Positions 41,553 to 46,956 of a DNA stretch of 64,000 nt are shown piece after piece. A model generated the notes under the pieces. The model was not told the DNA's origin and made no database searches. It worked only from the letters and a program-made list of their open reading frames with translations. Position numbers and translations under genes: made by a program. The stretch lies in the NCBI RefSeq assembly GCF_024362405.1, contig NZ_CP101454.1, positions 372,001 to 436,000 of the forward strand, written 5' to 3'. Source of the DNA: Halorarius litoreus. GTDB lineage: Archaea > Halobacteriota > Halobacteria > Halobacteriales > Haloarculaceae. Within the stretch, counting starts at the first letter, position 1; every line of letters begins with the position of its first letter.

Positions 41553-42872
41553 ATGCGAACGCTCGCCTTCGACGGCCGCACGGGCGCGGCCGGCGACATG
41601 ATACTCGGGGCACTGCTGGCCGCGGGCGCGGACCGCTCGGTCCTCGAACCGGTCGAGGCTGCCCTCCCCGTCGAATTCCGGGTCGAGGAGGTCGACCGTA
41701 ACGGCATCCGCGCGACGACCGTCGACGTGCTGCTGGTCGAGTCCGACGGCGGCGAAGACGACGGAAACGGGCACGACCACAGCCACGACCACGACGAGCA
41801 CGACCACACACACGACCACGACGAGCACGACCACACACACGACCACGGCGACCACAGCCACGAGCACACACACGCCGAGGGCCACGGCACCGCCCGAACG
41901 TACCGCGAGGTCCTCGACGTCGTCGACGAGATGGCCCTGCCGGAGGCAGTCGCAGCGGACGCCGAAGCCGTCTTCCGCATCCTCGGAGAGGCCGAAGCCG
42001 CCGTCCACGGCACCGACCTCGAGGACACACACTTCCACGAGGTCGGCACCGACGACGCCATCGCGGACGTGGTGGGGAGCTGTCTCCTGCTCGCCGACCT
42101 CGACCCCGACCGCGTCGTGACGACGCCCGTGTTCGCCGGCGGCGGCGAGGTCGAGATGAGCCACGGCCGCTACCCGGTTCCGGCACCGGCGGTCGTCAAC
42201 GTCGCCGCGAGCGCCGACTGGGAACTCCGCGGCGGGCCGGTCGACACCGAACTGCTCACCCCGACGGGCGCGGCCATCCTCGCGCAGTTCGCCGAGGGCG
42301 TCGACTCGCTCCCCCCGATGCGCGTCGACGGGTCGGGCTACGGCGCGGGCACCAAGCAGTTCGACGACCGACCGAACGTCCTGCGGGCGACCGTCGGCGA
42401 GGCGCAGGGCGAGCTCGTGCACGACGACGTGCGCGTCCTCGAAACGAATCTCGACGACGCCAGCCCCGAGGTGCTGGGGGGCCTCCAGCGGTCGCTGAAG
42501 TCGGCGGGGGCACGCGACGTGACGGTCCTGCCGGCGACGATGAAGAAGGCGCGACCCGGCCACCTCGTGAAGGTCGTCGTCAAGCCCGAGGACGCCCAGC
42601 AGGTCGCCCGCCGACTCGCCGAGGAGACGGGCACGCTCGGCGTCCGCGAGTCGAATGCCGGCCATCGCTGGGTCGCCGAACGGCGGTTCGAGACGGTCGA
42701 ACTGGAGATCGACGGCGAGACGTACGAGGTGACGGTGAAGGTCGCGAGCGACTCGGAGGGGAGTGTGTACGACGTGAGCGCGGAGTTCGACGAGGCCGAT
42801 GCGGTCGCCGCGGAGACGGGACTCGCGACCCGTGAGGTGCTGCGGCGGGCCGAGAGCAAATACCGGAGTTAG
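41553..42872 (+). CDS. larC: LarC-type nickel insertion protein (DUF111) with His-rich loop
   Basis: 439 residues in one uninterrupted frame. The N-terminus MRTLAFDGRTGAAGDMILGALLAAGA, the middle FHEVGTDDAIADVVGSCLLLADL and GGPVDTELLTPTGAAIL, and the C-terminal LETNLDDASPEVLGGL are LarC/DUF111 signatures. LarC uses CTP to insert nickel into the pyridinium dithiocarboxylate cofactor of lactate racemase-type enzymes. A His/Asp-rich segment (residues 74-111), including two identical nine-residue units, could store or bind Ni. No larA, larB or larE is in the window. Confidence 0.9.
   Translation: MRTLAFDGRTGAAGDMILGALLAAGADRSVLEPVEAALPVEFRVEEVDRNGIRATTVDVLLVESDGGEDDGNGHDHSHDHDEHDHTHDHDEHDHTHDHGDHSHEHTHAEGHGTARTYREVLDVVDEMALPEAVAADAEAVFRILGEAEAAVHGTDLEDTHFHEVGTDDAIADVVGSCLLLADLDPDRVVTTPVFAGGGEVEMSHGRYPVPAPAVVNVAASADWELRGGPVDTELLTPTGAAILAQFAEGVDSLPPMRVDGSGYGAGTKQFDDRPNVLRATVGEAQGELVHDDVRVLETNLDDASPEVLGGLQRSLKSAGARDVTVLPATMKKARPGHLVKVVVKPEDAQQVARRLAEETGTLGVRESNAGHRWVAERRFETVELEIDGETYEVTVKVASDSEGSVYDVSAEFDEADAVAAETGLATREVLRRAESKYRS
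41791..41844 (+). repeat. 27-bp perfect tandem duplication in the larC His-rich loop
   Basis: Two identical 27-bp units (41791-41817 and 41818-41844) encode DEHDHTHDH twice, in frame. Flanking sequence holds further degenerate His/Asp codons, so the loop grew by duplication. Confidence 0.9.
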
Positions 42873-43118: not shown

Positions 43119-43850
43119 TTACTCCTCGTCGTCGCCGCGGTGTTCCGCCAGCGCCTCCTCGATGGTCAGCTCCCCGGCGGCGACCCGGCGGGCGAGTACC
43201 TCGCTTATCGTTCGATTTGCCTCGCTCTGCTCGCGCGAGCGGTTCTTGATGACCTGCAGCTCGCCGGCGGTTGGCTCGATGTCGCGGGAGTCGACCGGCT
43301 CACCCGCCAGGTGGGCGATGTTGACGGCCGCGAGCACGTCGCCCATCCCCCGCGCGCCGGTCCCGAGATACGGGGTGGTGCCGGTCTCGTCGACGAGTTC
43401 GACCCGGACGCCGTCGAGGTCGTCGATGATCTTCGCGCCCTGGAGCCGGGCACCGTCGCCGATGCGGACCACGGGGTCCGGCGCCCCTTCGATTTCGCCC
43501 AGGACGGTCTCGGCGGCCTGCGTGAGCGGGACGTGGAAGGCGGCGACGACGGTCTCGCCGACGAGGACGGCGATGCCGGGGCGCTCCCCAGGGTCGATGC
43601 CGACGACGGTCTGTCCCGACCCGCCGCGCATGAGGGCGAGCGCCTCCTCGACCGCGTGCCGGGAGTCCTCGGGGGCACCGCGTACGACCGGCACCTCGGC
43701 GTCGAGGTCGTCGTCTTCACCCGTGATAACCACCTCACAGTCGGGGAGGTCGTCGCCGAGTTCGACCGTCGTGAACGTCACCCCGCGGTCGCGGAGTTCA
43801 CCCACGACGCCGTGGTAGAGCTCGAAGTCATCGGTGGCGACGACGATCAC
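43119..43850 (-). CDS. RNase H-fold (RuvC/YqgF-like) protein divergent from radB
   Basis: 243 residues from GTG 43850; TTATAC at 43873-43879 implies a leaderless GTG start. An N-terminal alpha/beta domain (1-60) precedes an RNase H-like domain. TVVGIDPGERPGIAV has Asp86 at the end of strand 1. VRVELVDETGTTPY offers Glu151/155 near the fourth strand, and GMGDVLAAVNIAHLAG has Asp171 in the last helix, the order seen in RuvC and YqgF. The C-terminal helix (REQSEANRTISEVLARRVAAGELTIEEAL) is extra. Nuclease or resolvase activity is a prediction. Confidence 0.75.
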   Translation of the reverse strand: MIVVATDDFELYHGVVGELRDRGVTFTTVELGDDLPDCEVVITGEDDDLDAEVPVVRGAPEDSRHAVEEALALMRGGSGQTVVGIDPGERPGIAVLVGETVVAAFHVPLTQAAETVLGEIEGAPDPVVRIGDGARLQGAKIIDDLDGVRVELVDETGTTPYLGTGARGMGDVLAAVNIAHLAGEPVDSRDIEPTAGELQVIKNRSREQSEANRTISEVLARRVAAGELTIEEALAEHRGDDEE

Positions 43851-43927
43851 GTCTCGACCTTCGCGGCGGCGAGTATAAGCGCGACGGGAAGCGGGAGTTT
43901 TTCACCGGTGACGCGGTAGAGCCGGGT

Positions 43928-44626
43928 GTGAGCGAGCCGATTCAGACGGGGTGTGACGCGGTCGACGACCTGCTGGACGGGGGGTTCGAGCGCGGCGCGG
44001 TGACGCAGGTGTACGGCCCCCCGGCCGCCGGGAAGACGAACCTCGCGCTCGCCGCCGCCGTCGGGGTCGCCGCGCGCGGTGACGTCGCCCTCTACATCGA
44101 CACCGAGGGGCTCTCCGTCGACCGGTTCGAGCAGCTCGCCGCCGCGTACGCGACCGACGACCAGACGGTCGAGGACATCGCCTCGCGCGTCATCATCTCG
44201 GAGGCGCTCGACTTCGCCGAGCAGGAAGAAGCGGTGCGAGACGCCGCGGAACTCGCCAGCCGCATCGACCTCATCGTCCTCGACTCGGCCACGGGGTTCT
44301 ACCGTCTGGAGCGGACGAACGAGTCGGGCGGCGAGGCCCTTCGCAAGGTCGCGCGGCAGGTGACCCACCTGCTGTCGCTCGCTCGGAAGGAGGATCTGGC
44401 CGTGGTCATCACGAATCAGGTGTTCTCGGACCCCGACAGCGAGAGCGAGCGCGTCCGGCCCCTCGGCGGCAACACGCTGAGCCACTGGGTCGCAGCCATC
44501 GTTCGACTCGAACGGTTCCGCGGGGGGAACCGCCGGGCCACGCTCGAAAAACACCGGTCGAAGCCTGCTGGCGGGACGGCGCGATTCCGCATCACTGGGA
44601 CGGGGCTGGAGAGCGTCGAGGAGTAA
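43928..44626 (+). CDS. radB: DNA repair and recombination protein RadB
   Basis: 232 residues from GTG 43928, with TTTTTC at 43898-43903 giving a leaderless GTG start. RadB is the short RadA paralogue without the N-terminal HhH domain. Walker A is YGPPAAGKTNLA, Walker B is IDLIVLDSATGFY, and VVITNQVFSDPDSESERVRPLGGNTLSHW is the typical C-terminal motif. RadB helps load RadA and affects recombination. Divergent from the RuvC-like gene over 77 bp. Confidence 0.95.
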   Translation: MSEPIQTGCDAVDDLLDGGFERGAVTQVYGPPAAGKTNLALAAAVGVAARGDVALYIDTEGLSVDRFEQLAAAYATDDQTVEDIASRVIISEALDFAEQEEAVRDAAELASRIDLIVLDSATGFYRLERTNESGGEALRKVARQVTHLLSLARKEDLAVVITNQVFSDPDSESERVRPLGGNTLSHWVAAIVRLERFRGGNRRATLEKHRSKPAGGTARFRITGTGLESVEE

Positions 44627-45165: not shown

Positions 45166-46038
45166 CTAGAAGATATTCGCCTGCTGGTACACCGAGATAC
45201 CCTCGTTCGTAATCTCGTAGGGCTTCGTCTCCCGCGAGTGGTTCGCGTTCCGGATCTTCTGGATTTCGACGGCCAGCCGCGTCTCGCGGAACTCCGAGCG
45301 GACGTACTGGAGGACGAACACCGCATCCGTGAGGTACTCGATGATGCCGTGCCGGGAGGCGTACGGGTTCCCCTCGGAGGCCTCGCTCGTCAGCATCGTG
45401 GTGACGCCCGCCCGCTTGAGGCTCTTGGTGAAGTCGAACACCTCGGTACGGCGCTCGGCCTGTTTGTCGTACATCATCTCCAGGAGGGAGACGGAGTCGA
45501 GCACGAGGCGGTCCGCGCCGAACTCGTCGACGAGCCGGGGGAGGTCGTTGCGGATGGAGGCCAGCGAGTTCGCCATCTCGACGGGGTCGAGGTCGACGAT
45601 GGCGAGCCGGTCGTCGTCGATGTGTGACTGGAAGTCCCAGCCCTTCTCGTTGCCGGCGGCGACGATGTCCGGTTTGGTCTCTTCGAGCGTGATGAACACG
45701 GCGCTCTCGCCGGTTTCGAGCCCCTGGTGGAGGAACTGGAGGCCGAAGGTGGTTTTCCCGGTACCGGCAGACCCCATGACGACCATCAGCGACCGCTCGG
45801 GGACGCCCCCCTGCACCATCTCGTCGAGCCCCTCGATGCCGAGGTCGATGCGCGGGATGTCCGACTCGAACTCCTCGTCGAACTCCGCGCTACCGACGTC
45901 GGCGCCGCCCTGGAAGGCGGACTCGAAGTCGTCATCGAACAGGTCACTGTCGCCGCTCCCTTCGAACGGGTCGTCCGCGTCCCCCTCGAAGGCGTCGTCC
46001 CCACTCGACTCGAACCAGTCGTCGGGGTCTTCGCTCAC
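45166..46038 (-). CDS. Single-domain KaiC/RAD55-like ATPase with acidic repeat N-terminus
   Basis: 290 residues from GTG 46038; no in-frame ATG is available nearby. Residues 1-62 are an acidic, Phe-spaced tail (DDAFEGDADDPFEGSGDSD type repeats). The RecA-like domain follows: IDLGIEGLDEMVQGGVPERSLMVVMG, Walker A GSAGTGKTTF (about 90), a catalytic Glu pair in FITLEETK, and Walker B DRLVLDSVSLLEMM. Such archaeal KaiC-like proteins are thought to act in signalling, often as partners of response regulators or membrane receptors. A clock role should not be assumed. Confidence 0.85.
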   Translation of the reverse strand: MSEDPDDWFESSGDDAFEGDADDPFEGSGDSDLFDDDFESAFQGGADVGSAEFDEEFESDIPRIDLGIEGLDEMVQGGVPERSLMVVMGSAGTGKTTFGLQFLHQGLETGESAVFITLEETKPDIVAAGNEKGWDFQSHIDDDRLAIVDLDPVEMANSLASIRNDLPRLVDEFGADRLVLDSVSLLEMMYDKQAERRTEVFDFTKSLKRAGVTTMLTSEASEGNPYASRHGIIEYLTDAVFVLQYVRSEFRETRLAVEIQKIRNANHSRETKPYEITNEGISVYQQANIF

Positions 46039-46140
46039 GGCGACACCTCCACCGCGTCGGTCATACGCGGCAATGAGACCGGGAGAAGATAACGCTTGCC
46101 CGTCGTGACGCTTATTCCGGGTGGCACCGAACTCCCGTCG

Positions 46141-46956
46141 ATGCACGTCGGCATCGTCGCCCAGCGGGGGAACCCCCGCGCCGCAGAGTTGGCGGAGGAC
46201 ATCCGCCGCGCGCTGGACGCGCGCGTGTCGCTCGACGCAGAGACCGCCGAGAGCCTCGGTGTCGAGGGTCGAGCAGCCGACGCGCTGGTCGGCTGTGACC
46301 TCGTCGTCTCCATCGGCGGCGACGGGACGTTCCTCTACACGGCCCGCGCGGTCGGGGACACACCCATCATGGGTGTGAACCTCGGCGAGGTGGGCTTCCT
46401 CAACGCGACCCCACCGGACGACGCCATCCGGGCGGTCCGTGCCGAGGTCGCCCGCCTCCGGTCGACGGACGACCCCGGGTTCCAGGAGATGGCGCAGGTG
46501 AAGGCCACCGGCGACGGGTTCGAACTTCCGGCGGCGCTCAACGAGGTGACGGTGCTCGGCCCGCAGCGCGGCCACGGCCAGGGCGTCGGCATCGAGGTCC
46601 GACTCGACGGCGAACTCTACACGGGCAGCCGCGCGGACGGCGTCATCGTCGCCACGCCCACCGGGTCGACGGCCTACAATCTCTCGGAGGGCGGGCCGCT
46701 CGTCCATCCCGACGTGAACGGCTTCGTCGTCACCGAGATGTGTGCGGAGGGGCCGATGCCGCCGCTGGTCGTCGACCCCGACCGCGAGCTCACGGTGCGC
46801 GTCGAGGAGGCCGAACGGGCGTACGTCGTCGCCGACGGCCGGACGAAACACGAGGTGACGCCACCGACCCGGATCCGTCTCCAGCGCGCCGAGCGCCCGG
46901 TTCGCGTGGCGGGCCCGCCGCTGGATTTCTTCGCGGCGCTCGGCAAGCTGGACTGA
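46141..46956 (+). CDS. nadK: NAD kinase
   Basis: 271 residues from ATG 46141 (MHVGIVAQRGNPRA), preferred over an upstream ATG whose first 15 residues look non-coding. It phosphorylates NAD to NADP. Motifs: VVSIGGDGTFLYTAR (GGDGT), GVNLGEVGFLNATPPDD, the NE motif LNEVTVLG, and the glycine-rich DGVIVATPTGSTAYNLSEGGPLV. All are intact and the length is normal. Confidence 0.95.
   Translation: MHVGIVAQRGNPRAAELAEDIRRALDARVSLDAETAESLGVEGRAADALVGCDLVVSIGGDGTFLYTARAVGDTPIMGVNLGEVGFLNATPPDDAIRAVRAEVARLRSTDDPGFQEMAQVKATGDGFELPAALNEVTVLGPQRGHGQGVGIEVRLDGELYTGSRADGVIVATPTGSTAYNLSEGGPLVHPDVNGFVVTEMCAEGPMPPLVVDPDRELTVRVEEAERAYVVADGRTKHEVTPPTRIRLQRAERPVRVAGPPLDFFAALGKLD

Follow-up and report, generated by a model that had tools for sequence, protein, structure and literature searches.

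A GTG-started gene divergent from radB

The window analysed here is a 64,000-nucleotide stretch of the Halorarius litoreus genome (contig NZ_CP101454.1, positions 372,001 to 436,000), in which two genes face away from each other across a shared promoter region of 77 bp (43851..43927). On the minus strand, an open reading frame with a GTG start (43119..43850) encodes a nuclease-like protein of 243 amino acids, while the plus strand carries radB (43928..44626), a 232-residue frame that also starts at GTG and whose product is a RadA paralogue and recombination mediator. The RadB identity is given by NCBIfam model NF006861 (399.8 bits against a cut-off of 278, E 3.6e-120), with TIGR02237 also matched. 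An earlier note on this DNA had described the pair, and its coordinates, both GTG starts and the 77-bp gap proved exact when checked against the open reading frames. The 243-residue protein comprises a small alpha/beta N-terminal domain (residues 1-76), a predicted YqgF-type RNase H-fold domain (residues about 80-186) and conserved C-terminal helices (residues 195-241).

Two further genes of the window lie close by. At 45166-46851 on the minus strand, near radB, is a RecA-family ATPase of the KaiC_arch_3 type (residues 338-561 of the frame match), with an acidic stretch before the matching region. At 41553-42872 on the plus strand is a LarC nickel-cofactor protein with a long insert rich in His, Asp and Glu.

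Each gene of the pair has a TATA-like element inside the shared region. For the nuclease gene this is a TTATA box on the minus strand (43873..43878, about -28 to -23 from the GTG), and for radB a TTTTT run on the plus strand (43898..43902, -30 to -26 from the GTG). We compared the 60 bases preceding each start in the haloarchaeal relatives. Upstream of the nuclease gene, A+T content peaks at -28 to -26 (0.86-0.91, 92 orthologues), and upstream of radB at -30 to -26 (0.83-1.00, 54 relatives), with a further A/T signal at -10 in both genes. The TATA boxes that the earlier note placed some 26-28 nt ahead of both GTGs thus belong to A/T peaks kept at the same place across haloarchaeal relatives. 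Shine-Dalgarno (SD) motifs are nearly absent from these haloarchaeal upstream regions (0/54 for radB and 5/92 for the nuclease gene). Since the A/T peaks lie near -27 and -10 and SD motifs are almost missing, the upstream sequences agree with leaderless transcription of both genes. Leaderless transcripts are common in Haloferax, where they make up 72% of all transcripts and where GUG starts account for 6% of the leaderless ones (PMC4983044). The GTG itself is conserved in all 86 scorable haloarchaeal orthologues of the nuclease gene and in 54 of 54 radB genes. We do not regard this conservation in haloarchaea as a special feature by itself, because the larC controls likewise keep their ATG (57/57).

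Judged by gene order, the divergent pairing with radB is old and conserved; a lack of such conservation was one of the outcomes that the earlier note had named as refuting its proposal. radB is divergent from the nuclease gene in 83 of 96 haloarchaeal loci and lies within 400 bp of it in 67 of them, where the gap measures 76-264 bp (median 120). Among the other loci, 11 have no radB inside the stretch examined and two show other orders. Of 20 loci outside Halobacteria, 10 have the two genes adjacent and oppositely oriented. Loci with a broken pair show other neighbours: in one family a co-directional fen1 gene (XPG_N/XPG_I) immediately precedes the nuclease gene (loci L133, L134 and L136), and in two other families a DUF373 gene adjoins it. 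A NERD-domain nuclease gene is found nearby in two radB-linked loci of a further family. Part of this synteny may be inherited gene order, since larC often stays close to the two genes of the pair throughout the phylum although this nickel-cofactor gene is not known to act in repair.

The neighbourhood also points to a probable counterpart in a genetic model. In Haloferax mucosum, the far side of radB is occupied by a gene (locus L007, 1423-3021) for a protein with four CBS domains and a weak tail resembling S30AE/ribosome-hibernation proteins; this gene matches HVO_2384 (PMC12607858). As HVO_2383 is RadB, the neighbouring HVO_2382 is the probable Haloferax volcanii orthologue of the nuclease gene. 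HVO_2382 has been given among uncharacterised proteins (PMC10470531). Binding of HVO_2384 to RadA and RadB has been reported as a personal communication (PMC3820547), and RadB mediates the loading of RadA (PMC5480776, PMC7776575).

Regarding distribution, a tblastn search of 392 Halobacteria genomes detected the gene in 323 and no copy in the other 69, which include several members of one genus (g21). A profile search recovered full-length relatives in seven further families of the phylum, with E-values of 1e-56 or better except for one fragmented copy. We checked 12 haloarchaea lacking the nuclease gene, and all 12 retain radB and Hjc; as far as these genomes indicate, the gene is therefore not obligatory for RadB function.

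Predicted fold and acidic residues of the 243-residue protein

No Pfam or NCBIfam family matches the 243-residue protein above threshold, and a comparison against PDB sequences found no relative. Only DUF460 surfaces in the Pfam search (E 0.049, 13.8 bits against a cut-off of 28), and neither PF03652 (YqgF/RuvX) nor any NCBIfam model gave a match at E-values up to 10. The whole protein and the isolated domain were each modelled with AlphaFold2 (mean pLDDT 86.6 and 86.7), and both models present the strand and helix order of the RNase H fold (b1-b2-b3-aA-b4-aB-b5-aC). The nearest Foldseek matches are phage RuvC-like resolvases (probability 1.00, E 2e-4 to 6e-4), and the chloroplast Holliday-junction resolvase MOC1 (6lct, 6kvo) is matched as well (probability 0.99-1.00, E 0.006-0.04); against the PDB no E-value falls below 0.001. 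Taken together, the models make the RNase H fold well supported, but not the exact structural neighbour.

Asp86, in a GIDPG motif (codon 43593..43595, minus strand), is placed by the model at the end of strand 1 and is conserved without exception in the 92 haloarchaeal orthologues and in 20 other sequences. The E-L-V-D-E stretch of residues 151-155 (codons 43386..43400, minus strand) falls at the end of strand 5, which is the YqgF-type acidic position, with Glu151 and Glu155 invariant and Asp154 nearly so. Asp171 (codon 43338..43340, minus strand) lies in the last helix of the fold and is also invariant. Asp86, Glu151, Asp154, Glu155 and Asp171 show no exception among the 92 haloarchaeal orthologues. 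Because Asp86, Glu151, Glu155 and Asp171 also remain invariant in a deep set of 28 sequences, including 20 relatives from outside Halobacteria, the acidic pattern is, on this alignment, not a product of chance. The RNase H-fold landmarks listed in the earlier note (Asp86, Glu151/155 and Asp171) are thus present and invariant, and they sit on a fold that AlphaFold2 predicts to be RNase H-like.

The same note had described these residues as following a RuvC/YqgF order. In YqgF the acidic triad occupies strand 1, the end of strand 5 and the last helix, whereas RuvC uses a glutamate on strand 4 (PMC9601230). The residue at the end of strand 4 in our protein, Asp132, is an aspartate in haloarchaea and His, Asn, Ser or Arg elsewhere. 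Since outside Halobacteria the strand-5-end glutamate is conserved and the strand-4 acid is not, the predicted active-site layout is YqgF/RuvX-like rather than RuvC-like, in partial agreement with that description.

Start codons of relatives outside Halobacteria

Of greater novelty is how the gene starts outside Halobacteria, a feature invisible to the single-sequence view of the earlier note. In 44 of 52 relatives from outside Halobacteria, a count that excludes the ATG-bearing family f22, none of ATG, GTG and TTG occurs downstream of the preceding in-frame stop and ahead of the conserved N-terminus. Instead, 43 sequences carry a GGAGG-like SD motif 7-8 nt ahead of an in-frame AGG (28/29 in family f38, 9/9 in f34, 4/4 in f25 and 2/4 in f19). 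The single f17 sequence has its AGG 5 nt after the SD, with a TTG also present just before it, and seven other sequences from two families have ATA, ATT or ATC 7-8 nt after the SD. Many of these relatives (L118-L137 and L204-L251) come from fragmented assemblies, and the start pattern recurs in at least four families.

Family f38 gives the clearest view of where coding begins. Conservation starts at the SD, and the AGG is fully conserved except in one genome (L229), which has ATG in the same alignment column. A stop codon stands directly before the AGG in 22 of the 29 f38 sequences, and also in L118 and L121. The third codon of the AGG frame varies between AAG (16 of 29) and AAA (12 of 29), and because this variation is synonymous, the coding region includes that codon.

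Several other explanations were considered for the missing starts. An artefact was rejected, since in most of the same loci larC (ATG or TTG) and radB (mostly ATG) begin where expected with a canonical codon, and the DUF373 ORFs also run their full length from such codons. That upstream conservation ends at the SD argues against a leader ORF or an additional exon upstream. A prfB-like frameshift at GGAGGG-CTT-TAA was rejected because the gene continues in the stop codon's own frame, and so was a start at the ATA of residue 2, from which the SD would be 19 nt away and which would not account for the synonymous third codon of the AGG frame. From these alignments, the simplest reading is that translation initiates at AGG, or at AUA, AUU or AUC, outside Halobacteria.

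We know of no earlier conserved natural use of AGG as an initiator, and a phrase search of the literature found no report of a prokaryotic AGG start. In archaea, aIF1 destabilises initiation complexes formed on non-AUG codons (PMC6237735), and the AUG start is under purifying selection in prokaryotes (PMC5622118); given both, a weak start that is nevertheless conserved suggests regulation and hints at an unusual translational control of the nuclease gene. A broader proposal is that the conserved non-AUG start, AGG in most relatives and AUA, AUU or AUC in two families, would represent deliberate near-cognate initiation in archaea, probably autoregulatory, and on the comparative data we judge the chances of this to be evenly balanced. 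Such starts raise the question of how archaeal ribosomes choose start codons and whether genes may be built to exploit weak initiation. They also have a practical consequence, as gene callers restricted to ATG, GTG and TTG would truncate the protein in most of these genomes and drop invariant N-terminal residues.

Proposed function and relation to known systems

The predicted fold, the conserved acids, the radB pairing and the leaderless GTG promoters are each supported by computation. Our favoured reading, to which we give about an even chance of being right, is that the gene encodes a genome-maintenance endonuclease with a YqgF/RuvX-type site, held in an old divergent pair with radB. It draws on the RNase H topology, the resolvases among the Foldseek matches, the invariant acids and a gene context of radB, fen1, DUF373 and NERD genes. 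Mechanistically, a metal-dependent RNase H-fold endonuclease with an active site of the YqgF/RuvX type would most likely trim or cut structured nucleic acid, such as branched DNA or an RNA:DNA hybrid, as part of the recombination-linked upkeep of the genome in haloarchaea and related archaea. A non-AUG start would keep its expression low or under control: GTG in haloarchaea, and AGG or AUA/AUU/AUC after a strong Shine-Dalgarno in most of the other lineages. We infer catalysis, a recombination-intermediate substrate and joint action with RadB alike, and a role as a resolvase or a RadB partner, which the earlier note had raised, is plausible from gene context. The literature we searched holds no activity, phenotype, interaction or epistasis data for the gene. 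The favoured reading is weakened by the Halobacteria that lack the gene, by the co-synteny of larC, by the weak PDB E-values and by the fact that bacterial YqgF acts largely on RNA (PMC9601230).

In the main rival reading, the protein would be an archaeal YqgF counterpart working in RNA processing, for instance in 16S rRNA maturation, its linkage to RadB being incidental. By analogy, its own non-AUG translation might then be tuned by the state of the small subunit, in a feedback resembling that of the AUU start of bacterial infC. This account fits the YqgF-like site and the start-codon behaviour better than our favoured reading does: YqgF cleaves RNA and has been reported in 16S processing (PMC9601230), the starts outside Halobacteria are non-AUG, and such a start can sense initiation stringency, given the effect of aIF1 (PMC6237735). 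It is weaker on context, however. No rRNA or ribosome genes were found among the annotated neighbours, where the hibernation-like tail encoded by the CBS gene on the far side of radB is the sole link of this kind; the radB and fen1 contexts point to DNA, and absence from 69 of 392 Halobacteria speaks against a housekeeping step in rRNA maturation. Overall, we consider an RNA-processing role unlikely, though a serious competitor.

A genuine Holliday-junction resolvase, standing in for Hjc and RuvC or serving as their backup, is less probable still. Its appeal lies in the Foldseek matches, which are resolvases, and in the 28 non-Halobacteria genomes with the nuclease gene: a clear Hjc is found in none of them, RuvC is present in 10, and the remaining 18 carry neither. 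In the cross-tabulation of 312 non-Halobacteria genomes of the phylum, clear Hjc (58 genomes) and RuvC (112) are mutually exclusive (overlap 0) and 142 genomes have neither. Yet of the 284 relatives in which the gene is missing, 124 are likewise devoid of both resolvases, and the resulting difference (p = 0.046, uncorrected for shared ancestry) is not convincing. Moreover, three of the families with the gene mostly carry RuvC too, and haloarchaea hold Hjc with or without it. Replacement of Hjc is thus suggestive for four families but not convincing. We find it hardest to credit an RNase H-fold protein that is regulatory or catalytically inactive and owes its place beside radB to inherited gene order and a common promoter. 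The retention of larC and its neighbours in the block would suit such a protein, as would a site of just three to four carboxylates, but acids that stay invariant over deep divergence (about 42-50% domain identity) would be unusual for a dead enzyme. The endonuclease reading adds an unstudied, probably catalytic nuclease to the small Haloferax set of recombination-linked genes, in a genus where deletions and their epistasis with radB, hjc and hef are tested as a matter of routine.

With respect to known families, the closest parallel in the predicted site is YqgF/RuvX (PF03652, COG0816), which shares the RNase H fold, the strand-1 Asp, the strand-5-end Glu and the last-helix Asp, together with a likeness in the motifs D-x-G, DE-x-x-T-T and D-x-x-A-A. 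On the other hand, the 243-residue protein has no Pfam RuvX match, its profile alignment to E. coli YqgF is non-significant (Prob 0.6), and it is archaeal, with an extra N-terminal domain and C-terminal helices.

DUF460/COG2433 (PF04312), predicted to be RNase H-like and close to RuvX and Tex (PMC3985635), is, on profile evidence, a possible distant relative. Both are archaeal and have the GIDPG strand-1 motif, and a domain profile comparison with hhalign is roughly collinear (Prob 84.5, E 7e-6), although the global alignment reaches only Prob 2.7. Scores stay below the Pfam cut-off of 28 bits in our protein (13.8) and in other relatives (15.7-20.7), and DUF460 proteins mostly have 600-700 amino acids, or about 400 in some families, as opposed to 243. 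A separate DUF460 gene is present in the Halorarius litoreus genome and in 115 of 120 sampled genomes. The form of about 400 residues, seen in several families, lacks the start of the Pfam domain.

RuvC (PF02075) has the fold and the strand-1 Asp in common with the 243-residue protein, which differs in having neither the strand-4 Glu nor a Pfam match to RuvC, and many related genomes in the phylum encode a true RuvC separately. As for the start codon, the bacterial infC gene, encoding IF3, has a conserved non-AUG start, AUU. Two families of the nuclease gene resemble infC and other non-AUG-start genes in placing AUA, AUU or AUC behind a strong SD, whereas the encoded protein is unrelated to IF3 and most of its relatives show AGG instead.
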